Shown here one piece after another: positions 141 through 8,310 of a stretch of 35,385 bases of DNA (position 1 is its first letter; each line of letters opens with the position of its first letter). The DNA is from Planctomycetota bacterium (lineage in GTDB: Bacteria; Planctomycetota; Phycisphaerae; UBA1845), in the NCBI GenBank assembly GCA_024276605.1, contig JAJRWX010000038.1, positions 1-35,385 of the forward strand, given 5' to 3'. The notes beneath the pieces are model-generated. The model searched no databases. It worked only from the letters and a program-made list of their open reading frames with translations, and was not told the DNA's origin. The position numbers were made by a program, and so were the translations under genes.

Positions 141-160
141 TTACGGGCGCGGTTCGGTTT
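141..160 (-). repeat. Dispersed repeat copy forming the selB 3' end
   Basis: On the plus strand the segment reads TTACGGGCGCGGTTCGGTTT. It is nearly the same as the copy at 3235-3254 (TTACGGGTGCCGTTCGGTTT) and related to the 23-bp arms at 3119-3141 and 3192-3214. It supplies the stop codon and the last residues (TEPRP) of SelB, so the repeat appears to have been captured as a short C-terminal tail after the last winged helix. Confidence 0.7.
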
Positions 161-2099
161 GATCGACGAGTATACGCGCGTCGCCTGTCCTTTTTGTGAA
201 ACCGATGCGGTCAAGATACTCCATAAAGGGTACTACAAACTTTCGACTGGAGTTCAAAGCCTCACGCACCTGGGCAATGGTGACCGATTCATGGGTTTGG
301 ATCAACCGGCTGACCGTGTTACGTAACGCTTGCTCGCTTTCAGTATGTAGGAATATCTTAGCCTCGATCTTTTTTAGATCACCCATGGCTACTGCGAGGG
401 TGGCTAACTTTTCGATGCGTTTTCGGTCTACCGTCTTGGCTATGGCAAGCGCAGACAGCGCCGGGGGTTGAAACCCGCCGCGTTGCATCTCGCCAATCAG
501 GGCCATTAAATGCTGCTCGTCCGCTTTGGATAACGTTGGCGCAAACTCGGGTAGGCAGGTAAATCGCCCGAACGGTTTCACGGCTTTCCGCTTCACAAAG
601 AGATCGAACAACGGCTTGGCTAATGACGGACGGCTGAGTCTGCCCAACCAGCCGATGACCGCATCGGTCGCTCGACCCGGCTCGTCCCCGTGACGATCGT
701 GATAGCGTTTTAACCAACGCGTTAATCTGATGCACAGATCATCAATGGCGCCGGGTGTCGCTCGTACCTGTGATGTCGGAATAGGTATCCAGCGCCCATC
801 GGCTTTTAGTTGCTGGTAGTTGGTGCTGAGTTGTTCTAAGGCTACCGCCGTTCGAGCGCACACGTGCAAGTCTGCCGGTTTTGTAAAGCGATATTCCCGC
901 AGTACCTGTGCGATCCGCTCAGTATCGTCACCGGTTTCGAGTGCGGTTAATGCTGCGATATTGTCTTCGACCGACGCACGCTGTCGTCGGGCTGACATGC
1001 GAAGTACGACACCGCCGCCGATGGTGCGCGAGGCTGTTTCATCACGAAGAATGAACCGCTGACCATAGGTTGCGACGAAAGCCTGGCCGCTGCGAAGTTG
1101 CGCATAGCCGGCCTGACCCGGCACAAGCTGCTTTTCTTTCAACAACACCGCCCGAACCGCCAGCTCCGTAGTGCCTATGCCCATGCGCACAATCTGCGTG
1201 GATTTCAACGGCTTGGGATTGGACGATAGATAGGTTAGCTTCACATCGACTAGTCGGATAGGCTCAAGATAGCCTGGTGTGGCCAATTCGCTGCCACGTT
1301 GTAGCGCTTCTCTATCGATCCCGCTTAGATTGATGGCTGCGCGGCGGCCTTGTTCGAGCATATCAAAAGATGCGCCATGGGCCTGTAAACTTCGTACGCG
1401 ACAGGTATCACCGCATGGCCAAACCTCAAGTGCATCCCCGGCTGATACCATACCTCGTATGACCGAACCGGTTACCACCGTGCCACGCCCCGGCACGGTA
1501 AACACGCGATCTATGCACATGCGGAAAGGGCTTGGATGATGATCCCGTTTTGCATGGCCTGCGACCTCGACCAGGGTTTGCCGAAGCGTATCAATACCTT
1601 CATCGGTGATAGAAGACACCGGGCAAATGGGTGCCTCAGCCAGTGGTGATCCGGCTAACAGTTCTCTCACCTCTTCAACGACCATCTCTACCATGTCCGA
1701 TTCCACGGTGTCGATTTTTGTTACAGCTACGACGCCTTGCGTGATGCCGAGTAGGTGTAGAATCTCCACATGCTCTCGGGTTTGTGGCATGACGGAATCG
1801 TCAGCGGCGACTACCAACAGGGCGACATCGATGCCTGTTGCCCCGGCTACCATAGTCTTCACGAACCGCTCATGGCCGGGAACGTCAACCACGCCGAACT
1901 GTACATGGCCGATATGCATCTCGGCAAAACCCAGCTCAATGGTCATTCCCCGTCGTTTTTCTTCGGGTAGCCGGTACGCGTCGATTCCTGTCAAAGCCTT
2001 CACGAGTGATGTTTTGCCGTGGTCAATATGCCCCGCAGTCCCTAGGATGCAGTGTTGGGTCGTGTCATTCACGGCGATAGGCAATATATCATGGGGCAT
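141..2099 (-). CDS. selB: Selenocysteine-specific translation elongation factor SelB
   Basis: GTPase that carries Sec-tRNA(Sec) to ribosomes paused at UGA codons followed by a SECIS hairpin. With the ATG at 2099 the protein has 652 residues. The G1 loop GHIDHGKT lies at 23-30, followed by [10 protein letters not shown] (switch I), [10 protein letters not shown] (G3) and TKID (G4), then EF-Tu-like beta-barrel domains and a C-terminal winged-helix array ending in [20 protein letters not shown]. That end resembles the SECIS-binding last winged helix of known SelB proteins. The frame stays open to 2237, but the extra 46 codons have no GTPase similarity and run through a dispersed repeat (2166-2216), so the start at 2099 is preferred even though no strong Shine-Dalgarno is visible. 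The last codons (TEPRP and stop) lie inside another dispersed repeat. It is divergent from a probable selenoprotein gene at 2374, which supports the role. selA, selD and selC were not seen in the window. Confidence 0.95.
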
Positions 2100-2165
2100 A
2101 TGTAATAGATTATGAAATGGATAACGCTGGTGGCAAGTCTGCCGTGGTCCGTGACAGTATCGGCG

Positions 2166-2216
2166 GGATGGGCACACCGAGCCGGAATCAGAGCCGCATG
2201 GCGCCAGCCTGCGGAC
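2166..2216 (-). repeat. Dispersed repeat, second copy at 4872-4905
   Basis: Read on the minus strand it starts GTCCGCAGGCTGGCGCC, continues A-TGCGG, and ends GTGCCCATCC after an 18-nt intervening stretch. The copy at 4872-4905 has the same left part (with G for A) followed directly by GTGCCCCATCC. It sits in the selB / selenoprotein divergent spacer (2100-2373). This makes it unlikely that the upstream-extended selB frame is coding. Confidence 0.6.
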
Positions 2217-2373
2217 CAGATTAGTCAACATGGCCAATTACGCCTATACGCCGGTATGTCACCAGGCTTGCGCCAGGTGCTCTGATATGACTCGTCGCCG
2301 ATACTGTCACAGACCCAGTATACCGCGTTTTCGCTGTTACCAATTAAGTCTGGTTGATGAACGGGAGTTGCCT

Positions 2374-3036
2374 ATGAAGTGTAGACTGTTATGCCATAAG
2401 ATCACGGCGATGGTTATGGTGCTTGTGTTGGGTGCGGCAGTAGCTGAAGCACAACCTTCGGGTAAGATGCGCGGTAAAGGTCGGCATGGCCCCGACACGG
2501 CCCCAAAAGTTGGTGACCACGCGCCGAATTTCAAACTCAAATCACTCGATGGAAAAAGTGAGACCGAGTTGTCTACGTTTGAAGGGGAAAAGCCGGTGGT
2601 ACTGATTTTTGGTAGCTATACGTGACCACCTTTTCGGCGCCAGGTTGGCGCGTTGAACGAGTTGTACAAAGCGTATCGCGACGAGGTAGAGTTTTTCGTG
2701 GTTTATATTAAAGAAGCACATGCTGCTGATAGCGATTGGCCCATGGCCGTCCCTGGTGAGACTATCAATACGCCTAAGACTTGGGGTGAGCGATCCGGTA
2801 TTGCTAAAAAGTGTATGACTAAGCTCAAGATTGAGATTCCTTGCTTAATAGATAACCTAGAAGATTCAGTTGATGCTGCTTATGCTGGGTGGCCCGATCG
2901 ACTTTTTGTGGTGGACAAAGCCGGGAAGATTGTCGTGCGGGGTAAGCGAGGCCCGTGGGGTTTCAAACCTTCGGTATCACAAGCTAAGATATGGCTCGCG
3001 GAGAAGTTTCCGCAGGCAAAGGTGCCAAATGGATGA
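2374..3036 (+). CDS. Secreted selenoprotein, iodothyronine-deiodinase-like redox protein (UGA = Sec84)
   Basis: Seen as two abutting reading frames, 2374-2622 and 2626-3036, separated only by an in-frame TGA at 2623-2625. Reading the TGA as selenocysteine gives 220 residues. There is a signal peptide (about residues 1-26, ending AAVAEA), then a thioredoxin-fold domain with active site FGSYTUPPF (Sec84). It continues with FFVVYIKEAHAADSDW and a later block AYAGWPDRLFVVDKAGKI. The order FGS-x-T-U-PPF, then YI-x-EAH, then P-x-RL-(F/Y)-(V/I)-V matches the iodothyronine deiodinase family, including the vertebrate enzymes. A SECIS-like hairpin follows the TGA. The start is the ATG with GGGAG six bases upstream. 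It is divergent from selB and followed by a TlpA-like protein. The substrate is unknown; a thiol- or peroxide-linked reduction in the cell envelope is more likely than thyroid-hormone metabolism. The natural stop is also TGA but has no comparable hairpin that I could see. Confidence 0.88.
2637..2651 (+). promoter_or_regulatory. Bacterial SECIS-like hairpin
   Basis: The sequence GCGCC-AGGTT-GGCGC forms a five-bp GC stem, extendable by one A-U pair, with a loop carrying GG-U. It starts 11 nt after the in-frame TGA (2623-2625). That spacing and the exposed loop G-G-U resemble the E. coli fdhF SECIS that SelB recognises. It lies within the coding sequence, as bacterial SECIS elements do. Confidence 0.75.
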
Positions 3037-3118: not shown

Positions 3119-3254
3119 GAACCGCGCCCGTGAGGAAGCGGACTTGCGGGGACCTGAGCAGTTTTCAATCGATCGTGAGTTTACTTATCAGCCGTTTCCT
3201 CACGGGCGCGGTTCTGATGGAGGGGCTGTTTCCTTACGGGTGCCGTTCGGTTTC
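3119..3254. repeat. Cluster of three copies of a 23-30 bp dispersed repeat
   Basis: The arms at 3119-3141 and 3192-3214 are inverted copies agreeing at 22 of 23 positions (GAACCGCGCCCGTGAGGAA, then G/A, then CGG), with a 50-nt spacer. A third copy, in the same direction as the second arm, lies at 3225-3254. A related copy ends selB at 141-160. The arms could form a long hairpin in RNA, but no T-tract follows, so this is not a typical terminator. Apart from these repeats I see nothing in the 3037-3411 spacer. Confidence 0.8.
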
Positions 3255-3411: not shown

Positions 3412-4533
3412 ATGCGATTATGGCTGACTAAAAATGTGAACTTAACTTTCATGAGCTTCTGCGTAATGGCTGGTTTGCTCACGCCGCTGGAAGTATACGC
3501 CGGTCCTCGGGCTACGTTTGAGCGGTTGGAAGATGATATGGAGGAAGCGACGGCGGACTTCTTCGATGCGCTTCACGAGTCGATAGATCAAGATGGTAGC
3601 CTAAAAAAAGGCGCGAAGCCGCCGCGCGACGATCGCACCATGATTCTGAAAAAGATGGATGCATTGGCAAAAAAATATGCCGATTCGCCGGACGGAGGGT
3701 ACATGGCTGCCAATACGCTGTTGTGGTCCGTTGACTTGGAACCCAAGTCGATCTTCCCGCGATTTACCTATCTCGTAGAGCATTTTACTAACGACCCGGC
3801 TATGGATTTGGTACTCGAGCAATTCGATTTTTTCTACGAACATGCAGCGACACCGCAAGCTTGGGCGATCGCCTTGCGTGATTTAGCCAAGCGGTCTACG
3901 CGAGCGCAGACAACATTTTCCGCTACTTTTTATGCCAGCCTAGCCCTCGTTCCGACCAAACAAGCTAATCAGGCTAAGCCTTGGCTACGCGAGGTATTAC
4001 AAACGGTTGCCAGTCAACAAAAAACGACCGACGGTTCTCAAAAAATAGACGCTGACCTTGCCGCACAGTTAGCTCAGCAGGCGAAAGCGTTACTCTTTGA
4101 GGTAGAACACTTGCAAATGGGCATGACCGCTCCCGGTTTTACCACTAAGACGCTTGATGGCAAACCCATGTCACTATCGTCGCTGCGAGGTAAGGTTGTG
4201 TTGCTCGATTTTTGGGCTACTTGGTGCCCCAGTTGTATAGCGGAGTTCCCCAATCTTACTACAGTGCAAAAGCAGTTGAGCGGAAAGCCATTTGTGATTG
4301 TATCAATCTCTCTCGACGATAGTCTTGATATAGTCCAGCGCGTTGTGAAACGCATGAAAGCACCGGGCATCCACACGTGGGACTTACAAGACGGCGAAAA
4401 CCCAGTTGGCACGATGTACAACGTGCGTCAATTACCCACGTGGTATCTATTGGATCAACAGGGTGTCATCCGCAACAAAGACCCCAAGAGCGAAGAGTTA
4501 GTTGGGTTGGTTGAGTCAATGCTAAAGAAGTAA
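3412..4533 (+). CDS. Secreted TlpA/ResA-like thioredoxin-fold protein with a helical N-terminal domain
   Basis: The protein has 373 residues from the ATG at 3412; a GTG start at 3385 is possible but would place nine polar residues before the signal peptide. The signal peptide is followed by about 200 residues rich in Ala, Lys and Gln that look alpha-helical and match no family I can name. The C-terminal domain (about 240-373) is AhpC/TSA-TlpA-like: MGMTAPGFTTKTLDGKPMSL, then LLDFWATWCPSC with the redox pair Cys272-Pro-Ser-Cys275, then cis-Pro RQLPTWYLLD. Its likely role is thiol-disulfide exchange outside the cytoplasm. It follows the selenoprotein in the same direction but is separated by a repeat-filled spacer of about 375 bp, so cotranscription is uncertain. 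A helical region before a TlpA domain is common in planctomycete TlpA proteins. Confidence 0.9.
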   Translation: MRLWLTKNVNLTFMSFCVMAGLLTPLEVYAGPRATFERLEDDMEEATADFFDALHESIDQDGSLKKGAKPPRDDRTMILKKMDALAKKYADSPDGGYMAANTLLWSVDLEPKSIFPRFTYLVEHFTNDPAMDLVLEQFDFFYEHAATPQAWAIALRDLAKRSTRAQTTFSATFYASLALVPTKQANQAKPWLREVLQTVASQQKTTDGSQKIDADLAAQLAQQAKALLFEVEHLQMGMTAPGFTTKTLDGKPMSLSSLRGKVVLLDFWATWCPSCIAEFPNLTTVQKQLSGKPFVIVSISLDDSLDIVQRVVKRMKAPGIHTWDLQDGENPVGTMYNVRQLPTWYLLDQQGVIRNKDPKSEELVGLVESMLKK

Positions 4534-4871
4534 AGCCTACGAAACACCTCTCCGGTCGTGGCAACCCTACCCAACGTCATACCTGCGCAGGTGGGTATCC
4601 AGCGCGTCGGTGGAATCGTGCCCTACCCCTGCGTGTCCTCGAATGGTCACACACACCTCGGTATGTCTTTGGGTTGTGATGTCCTGTCGTGTGACGAGTA
4701 TGGTCAGAGCACCACGGCGCAAGCTTGGTGACACGGTAACAGGTTGGCGCGGGCATCCATAACATGAACCGCGAAGACATGCCCGCGCTTCACTTGGCCA
4801 TGCCACACACAGCATATCATCGACTCCACCAGGTCCAAAAAGAAGGACTTGGGCCACCCAGTCGTGCGCCA

Positions 4872-4928
4872 GTCCGCAGGCTGGCGCCGTGCGGGTGCCC
4901 CATCCTTGCCTACTGGCAAAGGGTGGGG
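4872..4928 (+). repeat. Dispersed repeat plus adjoining hairpin
   Basis: Positions 4872-4905 match the repeat at 2166-2216 (minus strand), with GTCCGCAGGCTGGCGCC in common. The 3' part overlaps an inverted repeat, CCCCATCCTTGCC then TACT then GGCAAAGGGTGGGG, which could form a stem of about 11 pairs with small bulges. Confidence 0.6.
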
Positions 4929-5200: not shown

Positions 5201-6739
5201 TTATGGTGAGCTGTTACCGATGACGGTTGAACCGTTCCAAGAGTTGACCTTTAATCGCTTGGAGAGGATCATCCCTGCGCTGTGTATACCGGACTTGACA
5301 ACCACCATTCCGCCGTCTGGGACAGCCACAAGTCCTTCTAGTAATGTGTTGAATGGTGAGTCGAACAGACCGTCTTCCGTACCCGACCAGTCGAAGTCGA
5401 CCCAATAGCGTGTAGTGCGGAAACGGGCGATTGTGACGCGTGAGCTATTGATTGTATGTGCGTTATGAGCCTCTCCCGAACTGCCGATGGGTACGCCCGT
5501 CGCGACGCCGTCATGACTCAGGTTTGGGTTCGAGAACTGACCAATGGGCTGCCAGGTGTTCTCGGCGTCGTTATAGGCCATGATCGTACCCCAACCCCGC
5601 GTATCTCCCATAAAGCGGTGGCCGTATGAGTAGGAGAACACTCCGTCTACGCCGGCATCCTCGCGGTTGTGAGCGCAGCCCTGATTGTGGCCGACCTCGT
5701 GGGCCAGTGTCCAGTTGTCGCCAGAGCATACGCGGCTAACAACGCTGAATGCAAGCGATTCGAAGTCCGCCGATATTTCCTGCATCACCGGAGCCAGCCC
5801 ACACGTCAGGTTCCCGTAAAAGTCGGGATCAGTATCTTCGACGATCAAGCTGACAAAGTCGGCCCCGACGCGGTCGCGTAACTCGTGGATGTGATCGAAA
5901 TAGCCATCATCCGGAATGCCCAGCCGAACCAGGTGGTCTTGGTAACCATCCCAGCCTGTATCCTCGTCATAGAGAATCTCTTCCATATGTACGAGCCGCA
6001 GTCGAGAGACGATCCCGCTGTTGGCGTAAGCATCGTTGGCAGCATCGATGGCGAGTTGGATCTCGGCGCGGATCGCAGATGTTCCGCCGGCTGCCTGTCG
6101 CGTCACGTTGCTGTAAAGAACCAGAATGTCGTGACCGTTACCGTTGTCAGTTGAACCAGCTGCAGCAGCTTCTAAGGCCATGCCTCGACTGGTAGACCGG
6201 TCGACTGCATCGTTCAACAGGTTATGAAAACGGCGAGTCTTATCAGGCGTTACGCCACAGCGCGGAAAGGTAGCCGGGTCGATTTGTCGAACAACATGCC
6301 TTCCGTCGACGAAGTAACGGATATGATATGTATTGCCTCCGGCATTACGAACGATCCCTACCAGCACGTCGTCGTAGACCACCAGATTGAAGCGTCCATT
6401 GACGTACTCATCAAGGCGTCCGCTGAGCGAGTACCCGCTGGTATAGTTCGCAACGCGTTCGACGGTGGCAGAAAATACGGCGTCATCGAATAGGTTTAGC
6501 GTCAAGTGCTCCGCATGAGTCACACGAACATTATCCAATCGTGACCAATCAATCGAAACTGCTCGGGCACGGGTGTACATTGTAGAATTGACGCTTACCG
6601 TACGCGATGGAGCAGGTGGTTCGATGAAAATGGCACCTATGTTGGGTTGTATCGCGCCGTCGTCTGCGAAAGTGAGACTCGTGATGAGGCTCAGCATCAC
6701 AAGGGTGAGAACGCGGTGCGCACGTACGACTCCCATCAT
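5201..6739 (-). CDS. Secreted metzincin zinc metallopeptidase (reprolysin/M12B-like) with C-terminal beta-helix-like module
   Basis: The protein has 512 residues from the first of two adjacent ATGs (6739), with GGGGA about eight bases upstream; the frame is open to 6871. The signal peptide ends near SLTFADDG. The propeptide-like region is followed by a catalytic domain starting near HDILVLYS. It contains the zinc motif HEVGHNQGCAH at 347-357 (HExxHxxGxxH) and a Met-turn TIMAYN about 30 residues later, together diagnostic of metzincins. The last 70 residues (WVDFDWSGTEDG, PFNTLLEGLVAVPDGG, VVVKSGIHSAG) resemble one or two coils of a NosD/pectin-lyase-like beta helix. They recur in the next two peptidases. 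It is an exported protease; its substrate is unknown. It is last of a minus-strand series of exported proteins. Confidence 0.9.
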   Translation of the reverse strand: MMGVVRAHRVLTLVMLSLITSLTFADDGAIQPNIGAIFIEPPAPSRTVSVNSTMYTRARAVSIDWSRLDNVRVTHAEHLTLNLFDDAVFSATVERVANYTSGYSLSGRLDEYVNGRFNLVVYDDVLVGIVRNAGGNTYHIRYFVDGRHVVRQIDPATFPRCGVTPDKTRRFHNLLNDAVDRSTSRGMALEAAAAGSTDNGNGHDILVLYSNVTRQAAGGTSAIRAEIQLAIDAANDAYANSGIVSRLRLVHMEEILYDEDTGWDGYQDHLVRLGIPDDGYFDHIHELRDRVGADFVSLIVEDTDPDFYGNLTCGLAPVMQEISADFESLAFSVVSRVCSGDNWTLAHEVGHNQGCAHNREDAGVDGVFSYSYGHRFMGDTRGWGTIMAYNDAENTWQPIGQFSNPNLSHDGVATGVPIGSSGEAHNAHTINSSRVTIARFRTTRYWVDFDWSGTEDGLFDSPFNTLLEGLVAVPDGGMVVVKSGIHSAGMILSKRLKVNSWNGSTVIGNSSP

Positions 6740-6867
6740 GCTTGTATCCCCAAGGCCCACGCACTCAATCCTCATCTCTGCCCTGCCGAGCTTGATCCTC
6801 TTACGTTTCACTAGAAACCGATGATCGCCAACGTGTAATTCGGTTTGGGCCTGTCCGGGGATAATGC

Positions 6868-8172
6868 TCATGGTGTCGAGCCTATCGCGTCGCTAGCGGT
6901 GTCTTTTTGTTGCGTGCTCGATCCTGGGAATCCGAGTCGAGCAGCGGATGGATCATTGGTGTAGCCGGGGAGTTTGCTAAGTCGTTCTTCAATCTGCGTT
7001 ACTGGGGGTTGGGTGGGATTCCGTCCTGCTGTTGCGCTGGAGCCGATAATCGCCGTGCTGACACGGGTTGCCCGAAGCGTTAACGGAGTATCTATTTGCA
7101 CTGTTTCCGGGTACCAACCAGATTTGATGACTAAAATATCGCCGCCGAAGGGATTGGCCGCATTGACGCCGTTGGTCACCGTTAGGAACGGCGATATTTC
7201 AGTTCCACTACCGGCGGACAGGGCCTTCCAATCGACCAGATACATGTCGCCATCAGTTACCTGACTTCGGTACTCGAGCGCCGTGCCGCCCCAGCGGTCC
7301 AACTGCTGTTCGGTCATGCGGAAGTTGTCTACGCTCTGCCCGCAACCTGATCCGTGGTAGGACATGACGTTCAGAAACGAATCATCGACTTGGTTCTGCT
7401 CACCTGGGGTGAGCTGTGCATAAGTGAAGCCGCCGAAATTGTGCTGCGCAATTTCATCCTGCCCCCAGCAGGCGAGATCTTCAACCGTATCCCCGATGCA
7501 GTCCGATCTTGGTATTGTGTGACAGTTACCCGTCACACCTGCTTCGCAGCATCCGCAAGGGCAACCCTGCGTGTGACAGAGGTCGAAGAAGTGCCCCATC
7601 TCGTGAAGGGTTAGCCGGCCGTTGTTGGCAGACGCCCCTCCGATAATCGCGATCTTTTCGTCGATCCCGGTAAAGCGCACACAGTCGGGATACCCCAGCC
7701 ATCCGCTGTAAAACGAACAGATTCCTCCAGAGATGCCATTCGTGATATAGATGTTGATCGCACTATCGTTCCAGGCGTACTCCACCGGGTTCGCCTCGGC
7801 TTCGCTTTCCATGAAGCGCTTGGCTGCACTCCCTCCGGCGGCGAAGAAATCGGTATCGAAGAACTGACTCGGTCCGCCCGTAAACGGTCCACCACCAACC
7901 TCGGTGATCGGGTCAACGCGGTAGAACTGATACCCGCGCCAATAGGACGCGAGCAGCTCGTTGGCGAACTCGATCGCGTCGTCAATATCCTGATCCCTCA
8001 CTGGTCCTCCGCCGTTGCGCGTCGGTCGAGCCCCATCTCCCGCGTGAAGTACGATCTTGTACGACACGCGGATGTGAATCACATTGTCGGCAAAGACCGG
8101 AGGCACCACTAAGAGAAGCACGCAGATGCCTGGAAATTTCGCGTTTCGATGGTTCATGCTTTTTGTTTTCAT
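6868..8172 (-). CDS. Secreted metallopeptidase (pappalysin/M43-like) with C-terminal beta-helix-like module
   Basis: The protein has 434 residues from the ATG at 8172 (MKTKSMNHR...). A GTG at 8190 and an ATG at 8157 are alternatives, and none has a strong Shine-Dalgarno. After the signal peptide (ending PPVFA) comes a catalytic domain with HEMGHFFDLCHT; the HExxHxxxxxH motif is at residues 190-200. A Cys-rich insert follows (QGCPCGCCEAG), then the Met-turn NVMSYHG. This pattern fits the M43 family better than astacin, although the usual Gly of HExxHxxGxxH is Asp here. The C-terminus has YLVDWKALSAGSGTEISPF, GGDILVIKSGWYPETVQI and LTLRA, the same kind of short beta-helix module as its neighbours, plus a polar tail. 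The upstream sequence includes TTAGCC before the start, as in the astacin gene. Confidence 0.85.
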   Translation of the reverse strand: MKTKSMNHRNAKFPGICVLLLVVPPVFADNVIHIRVSYKIVLHAGDGARPTRNGGGPVRDQDIDDAIEFANELLASYWRGYQFYRVDPITEVGGGPFTGGPSQFFDTDFFAAGGSAAKRFMESEAEANPVEYAWNDSAINIYITNGISGGICSFYSGWLGYPDCVRFTGIDEKIAIIGGASANNGRLTLHEMGHFFDLCHTQGCPCGCCEAGVTGNCHTIPRSDCIGDTVEDLACWGQDEIAQHNFGGFTYAQLTPGEQNQVDDSFLNVMSYHGSGCGQSVDNFRMTEQQLDRWGGTALEYRSQVTDGDMYLVDWKALSAGSGTEISPFLTVTNGVNAANPFGGDILVIKSGWYPETVQIDTPLTLRATRVSTAIIGSSATAGRNPTQPPVTQIEERLSKLPGYTNDPSAARLGFPGSSTQQKDTASDAIGSTP

Positions 8173-8310
8173 TCTGGGTCTCTTTGCCACGGCTAACCTA
8201 AGCTCGTGAATATTAGGAGTCCCGACTTTTTTCTACCCAAATGTTCCATAGTTTTGGGACGATTTCCAGCAAATATGATGAAGCAAACAGTTCCAAGCAA
8301 CAGCAACTAG

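Follow-up and report, generated by a model that had tools for sequence, protein, structure and literature searches.

A predicted selenocysteine-containing protein of the iodothyronine deiodinase family encoded beside selB in a planctomycete

According to the parts of the literature consulted, deiodinase-like proteins of bacteria were described in 2005 from the Sargasso Sea, where selenocysteine (Sec) forms (four sequences) and Cys forms were found and a redox role was suggested (PMC1088965). Deiodinase-like selenoproteins were counted again in GOS 2008 (PMC2398784), deiodinase-like proteins fused to EF-hands were found in 2021, and bacterial members are listed in reviews (PMC9312934, PMC13188914). 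For the animal enzymes, the consulted parts of PMC9141512 state that a proximal Cys resolves the Sec of DIO1, that a distal Cys lies 69-76 positions after Sec, and that the distal Cys has no role in DIO1 kinetics, its role in animal deiodinases being called elusive. Since bacterial deiodinase-like selenoproteins have been reported since 2005, the gene analyzed here adds a member to a known group.

The gene lies in a contig of a Planctomycetota bacterium (JAJRWX010000038.1), whose whole analyzed stretch of 35,385 nucleotides is called the window below; its features are listed in Table 1. An earlier note, made from the letters alone, had proposed that two short frames fuse at a TGA into one deiodinase-like protein, which an ordinary annotation would split. 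The frame is indeed interrupted by this TGA only, read-through places FGSYTUPPF at residues 79-87 (a T-U-P-P-F context), and a plain ORF listing does give two pieces. The GGGAG is located 6 nt upstream of the ATG at 2374. In the two closest orthologues the alignment likewise begins at residue 1, and a GGGAG or AGGAG precedes each start. The putative signal peptide, judged by eye, has a predicted cleavage between AEA and Q. In addition, a crude hydropathy count, which carries little weight since it lacks a control and the reading may overrun the start, showed a 14-residue hydrophobic segment upstream for 112 of the 120 frames that could be read (123 loci, less three running off their contigs). 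The protein is probably exported, as judged from the putative signal peptide.

Table 1. Features of the deiodinase-like locus in the window.
Feature	Coordinates	Strand	Basis or remark
selB, Sec-specific elongation factor, divergent neighbour	141..2099	-	TIGR00475 352 bits, cut-off 242
Likely ribosome-binding site GGGAG	2363..2367	+	Sequence; same site type in orthologues L089, L090
Predicted deiodinase-like selenoprotein gene	2374..3036	+	220 residues, Sec at 84, stop TGA 3034-3036
Probable signal peptide, residues 1-26	2374..2451	+	By eye
In-frame TGA, predicted selenocysteine 84	2623..2625	+	TGA in 113/124 distinct homologues, Cys codon in 11
Candidate bacterial-type SECIS hairpin core, loop GGU 2643-2645	2637..2651	+	Folding and comparative tests
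TlpA/ResA-like thioredoxin (WATWCPSC; secreted by eye), possible electron donor	3412..4533	+	Same neighbour in relatives

The family assignment of the earlier note was upheld by a Pfam search, in which the read-through protein matched T4_deiodinase (PF00837) at E=4.6e-29 and 101.8 bits (cut-off 27). NCBIfam NF038285 (deiodinase_rel) was matched at E=5.1e-55 over model positions 175-339, but at 187.3 bits the match did not reach the cut-off of 250. Among solved structures, mouse DIO3 (9.9e-21) and DIO2 (1.1e-16) were nearest by sequence. With an AlphaFold2 model of residues 27-220 (pLDDT 94.2), Foldseek put DIO3 and DIO2 on top and VIA-align scored them at Z 22.0 and 21.3, the next chain reaching 17.7, so that the predicted model resembles DIO more closely than it does other proteins of thioredoxin fold. 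In the tree, the animal deiodinases join locus L015 with a support of only 77. On these comparisons and the TGA and hairpin evidence given below, we regard it as nearly certain that the gene encodes a Sec protein of the iodothyronine deiodinase family. AhpC-TSA and Redoxin were matched more weakly, at 47.3 and 42.4 bits, yet above their cut-offs, and the AhpE and Bcp folds are close to the predicted model (Z about 17). These observations are consistent with a different reading, namely that the protein is mainly an exported, peroxiredoxin-like selenium peroxidase whose resemblance to deiodinases reflects shared ancestry only; against this reading, DIO folds come clearly first in the structure ranking with the predicted model.

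The TGA recurs across homologues. A set of 168 loci gave 157 profile matches, of which three below 60 bits were dropped and 124 were distinct after duplicate removal (123 distinct loci in a later comparison by core sequence); this set is not random, being composed of the best matches of a phylum search, a relatives search and a pattern search (best 80). The codon for residue 84 was TGA in 113 of the 124 distinct domains, TGC in nine and TGT in two, with no other codon, in line with the U or C that the earlier note had proposed to look for at this position. Downstream of the TGA, the codons of the window gene differ from those of its two nearest orthologues in 21/11/55 and 20/9/73 cases at positions 1/2/3, and this third-position excess shows that the stretch evolves like translated sequence. 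Of 392 genomes sampled from the phylum, 118 contain a match to PF00837 at E<=0.001. The window gene is split by a plain ORF listing and does not reach NCBI's curated cut-off, and yet among the matches listed 96 of the 392 genomes had one lying over an in-frame TGA, which may not be the Sec position in each. selA (E<=1e-40) was present in 89 of these 96 genomes versus 157 of the 296 others (Fisher p=5e-14), and the seven lacking selA are draft assemblies that are 67 to 92% complete. The remaining 22 of the 118 genomes, with no TGA-spanning match among those listed, comprise carriers of Cys forms, carriers of fragments and two genomes whose matches fall outside the listing; 12 of the 22 have selA.

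We then consider the hairpin behind the TGA, which the earlier note had described as SECIS-like. Its stem core pairs 2637-2642 with 2646-2651 and starts 11 nt after the TGA, and the extended stem as scored covers 2633-2657. Folded as a single sequence it was not special against dinucleotide shuffles (MFE z 0.24; 118 of 200 shuffles folded at least as well), and an Rfam scan of the window at gathering scores gave no match. Single-sequence folding therefore failed as proof of a SECIS and was replaced by comparative tests. These used our own scoring, not a published predictor: for each gene, the best hairpin lying at a distance typical of a SECIS and carrying a G at loop position 1 or 2 was compared with 200 synonymous-codon shuffles. 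The window hairpin gave p=0.015. The mean over the 113 TGA forms was -9.35 kcal/mol, where the null gave -3.96; the mean z was -1.9, and only 51 of the forms were individually at p<0.05. For the 11 Cys forms the corresponding means were -3.06 and -3.08, with none at p<0.05 and four reaching -4 kcal/mol. A GGU loop 17 nt after the TGA was found in the window, in a paralogue of the same genome and in three orthologues (p=0.08 in one of these); throughout the 113 TGA forms the best loop starts at 17 in 70, with GGU in 64.

Pairing in the SECIS register reached 75.6% in TGA forms and 39% in Cys forms, and ten alternative registers gave 31-46%. For covariation we used 65 of the 113 TGA sequences, less than 60% identical as proteins, and obtained a score of 0.447 against 0.188 for shuffled alignments (0 of 500 reached it) and at most 0.264 for slid versions; cells changed on both sides numbered 74 against 33 (0 of 500 shuffles). 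Note that two-sided change of any kind, seen in 7 of 7 pairs, says little because 145 of 500 shuffles matched it, and that RNAalifold alone returned 3 weak pairs at -1.06 kcal/mol. The hairpin claimed by the earlier note thus lies at the stated position and is strongly backed by the comparative tests, although as a single fold it does not stand out from dinucleotide shuffles. The unremarkable single-sequence fold is also what could be said for the TGA being an artefact of sequencing or a genuine stop codon in a gene undergoing decay. We rejected this explanation as extremely unlikely, given that the same TGA stands in most distinct homologues from many assemblies, the codons downstream are under protein-level selection, the hairpin covaries and the TGA form is associated with selA.

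The host genome comprises 4.5 Mb in 110 contigs, the window being contig C16, and the closest named relatives are Planctomycetota metagenome-assembled genomes with 77% (Phycisphaerae bacterium) and 75% identity over residues 1-220. It contains selA (568.8 bits), a tRNA-Sec (64.8 bits against a gathering score of 47; anticodon tca by ARAGORN) and a selD (L012, G000:C110) that has an in-frame TGA of its own and is probably itself a selenoprotein. Together with selB, which the earlier note had correctly recognized as the divergent neighbour, these make up a complete SelA/SelB/SelD/tRNA-Sec system, and the UGA at 2623-2625 is, as predicted from sequence, decoded by this system via the SECIS hairpin. 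None of the results that the earlier note had named as speaking against its proposal (homologues ending at the TGA, missing sel genes, an error in the TGA) appeared. Beyond selB the window contig extends for another 140 nt, and selA lies on a different contig, C13, 3.7 kb from its end; in two orthologous loci (L089, L090) selA follows closely behind selB. Several further genes were observed. The same genome carries a second deiodinase-like gene with an in-frame TGA and a C-terminal extension (G000:C6:31837-32331; L002, L073), as well as a thioredoxin-like match with an in-frame TGA (G000:C75:26861-27034), with similar matches in relatives, which is possibly a further selenoprotein. Elsewhere, L159 and L160 hold tandem deiodinase-like paralogues on one contig, the L159 copies being one Sec and one Cys form.

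Linkage of the deiodinase-like gene to Sec-machinery genes was observed in several lineages of two phyla. A divergent selB stands beside the gene in the window and five distinct relatives, and a match to selA, selB or selD lies within 8 kb in 11 of the 123 distinct loci, four of these also having tRNA-Sec; 65 of the 123 have 3 kb or more on both sides. Three of the linked loci belong to Verrucomicrobiota, and in two of these three the order selD-selA-selB-gene runs along a single strand; L112 and L154 show two other arrangements in planctomycetes. In two additional genomes (G109, G171) the gene is about 4.8 and 3.5 kb from sel genes. Judged from genome fraction alone, 16 kb is below 0.4% of such a genome, so that less than one of the 123 would be expected by chance; the related loci are not independent, and six Phycisphaerae-type loci may represent one event. 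On the tree, sel adjacency needs six changes. The largest neighbour cluster other than sel, protein-kinase-like by eye, occurs in 12 of 123 loci at scattered distances. The TlpA-like neighbour was found in 4 of 123 distinct loci (the window, L055/L089, L056/L090 and L057), many loci having short flanks.

We also observed that the selB-deiodinase gap (window 2100-2330) is longer than in orthologues, and pieces of it recur at 4693-4733 and 4872-4894, so it is probably an inserted repeat element. Window 3119-3214 holds two 23-nt pieces in inverted orientation, and the end of the selB frame (TEPRP) is, by eye, of the same sequence type. On the minus strand, window 5201-8190 contains two large adjoining frames with zinc-protease-like HExxH motifs (HEVGH, HEMGH), again by eye.

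A comparable arrangement is fdhA, which is found near selA-selB-selC in Proteobacteria according to the consulted part of PMC1794560. In the literature consulted we found no report of a deiodinase-like gene beside Sec-machinery genes, and the consulted parts of the accounts of bacterial deiodinase-like selenoproteins (PMC1088965, PMC2398784, PMC9312934, PMC13188914) do not mention sel linkage. This location suggests a reason why these bacteria keep selenocysteine. It could be read as a main role in selenium supply, with the protein placed beside selB to report on or tune Sec decoding, and the sel genes near 11 of 123 distinct loci and in the two additional genomes would fit. We consider this very unlikely, because most loci lack a nearby sel gene (many flanks are short), the complete conservation of the catalytic residues points to an enzyme, and fdhA is similarly sel-linked with no such role claimed for it in the consulted part of PMC1794560. 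A broader proposal is that the protein accompanies the Sec-decoding genes in Planctomycetota and Verrucomicrobiota and contributes to their maintenance, a role already suggested for fdhA in Proteobacteria. It would act as an exported reductive dehalogenase or peroxidase, and a downstream Cys corresponding to the animal distal Cys would resolve its oxidized Sec; in this full form we hold the proposal to be unlikely.

Turning to the active site, all 113 Sec forms share S81, T83, Y111, E114, A115, H116, D119 and D160 without exception. The loop-D Tyr, Glu and His thus appear as Y111, E114 and H116, corresponding to DIO1 Tyr153 and Glu156 and DIO2 Tyr157, Glu160 and His162, and among the invariant residues are some for which a part in the proton relay of animal deiodinases has been proposed (PMC9141512, PMC11592359, as far as consulted). 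Position 134, that of the second relay His (DIO1 174, DIO2 182), is occupied by Pro in the window protein; among the 113 Sec forms, 82 have Pro, 26 His, four Ala and one Gln. Loss of this His need not stop catalysis, because DIO1 H174A is active, H174Q being inactive (same sources). R192 aligns with the Arg of DIO3 GGRGP (Arg275, counting from Cys239) and is kept in 48 of 113 Sec forms. The loop residues that the family has in common with DIO (E114, A115, H116 and D119) also weigh against the peroxidase reading. Peroxiredoxins have the pattern PxxxTxxC, with which a T directly before U does not agree. Overall, the peroxidase reading is a serious possibility that we place somewhat short of even odds.

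The proximal-Cys position is Tyr or Phe in 105 of 113 Sec forms, and at least one Cys at 141, 147, 148 or 157 (U+57 to U+73) is likewise present in 105 of 113, the equality of the two counts being a coincidence. Only residue 157, Cys in 42 of 113, falls within the animal distal-Cys range; 141, 147 and 148 lie outside it and may be functional counterparts of the animal distal Cys. A Cys at U-2 occurs in three sequences, all among the eight without Cys at the four positions, and two of the three are sister rows, so these represent two events. Cys141 goes mostly with His134 (22 of 27) and Cys147/148 with Pro134 (73 of 78), and no sequence has both. The window protein has Pro134, Cys147 and Cys157, and its own-genome paralogue has His134, Cys141 and Cys157, the paralogue IREHK aligning with the window INTPK. 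The sequences thus appear to form two subtypes that differ at the proton-relay histidine. Neither these subtypes nor near-universal downstream cysteines where the animal proximal Cys is missing were found reported in the literature consulted. With the proximal Cys nearly always missing and a downstream Cys kept, the family offers a natural test of the animal deiodinase question.

Taken together, the best explanation is a Sec-containing deiodinase-family protein acting as an exported, Cys-resolved selenol reductase, to which we give a probability of about 0.65. The protein would be exported, and the Sec84 selenolate would attack an electrophilic small molecule, either a halogenated organic compound, at its halogen, or a peroxide, with the E114/T83/S81/Y111 network supplying the proton as proposed for animal deiodinases. 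Resolution of the oxidized Sec by Cys147 or Cys157 might then yield a selenenyl-sulfide, which a thioredoxin of the periplasm could reduce in the last step; the neighbouring TlpA-like protein is a candidate. The Cys-resolved cycle stands at roughly even odds, and either particular substrate class below that. Points against the explanation include Pro134 at the DIO1 His174 position, the kinetically silent distal Cys of DIO1, and the rarity of the TlpA neighbour (4 of 123). A narrower possibility is that the protein genuinely works as a reductive dehalogenase or deiodinase, with iodinated or brominated organic compounds from the environment as its substrates. Retention of the relay residues S81, T83, Y111 and E114, the alignment of R192 and the isolate names of some relatives, such as Dive100, would suit it; however, the relay His is mostly replaced by Pro, R192 is kept in a minority of Sec forms, and the 2005 authors expected a different function (PMC1088965, consulted part). 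We therefore judge it fairly unlikely.

In comparison with known systems, the window gene shares PF00837 membership, Sec forms, a bacterial SECIS and Cys homologues with the bacterial deiodinase-like selenoproteins described so far, as far as those accounts were consulted, whereas the consulted parts of two reviews (PMC9312934, PMC13188914) list UxxC and all 113 Sec forms here have F or Y at position +3. NF038285 also describes deiodinase family proteins, but its model has 347 positions and its N-terminal half is unmatched by the window protein. ResA/TlpA thioredoxins share the fold of the predicted model (Z about 17), but lack Sec and the deiodinase loop; their active site is CxxC, to be compared with CPSC in the TlpA-like neighbour. 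Vertebrate DIO1-3 (4tr3, 9h48) resemble the window protein in fold, U-P-P-F, the Thr-Sec pair, the loop D Tyr/Glu/His and a Cys 73 residues after Sec. On the other hand, the window protein is short and probably exported, lacks the proximal Cys (Tyr82) and has Pro for the relay His, and thyroid hormone is not expected as its substrate.
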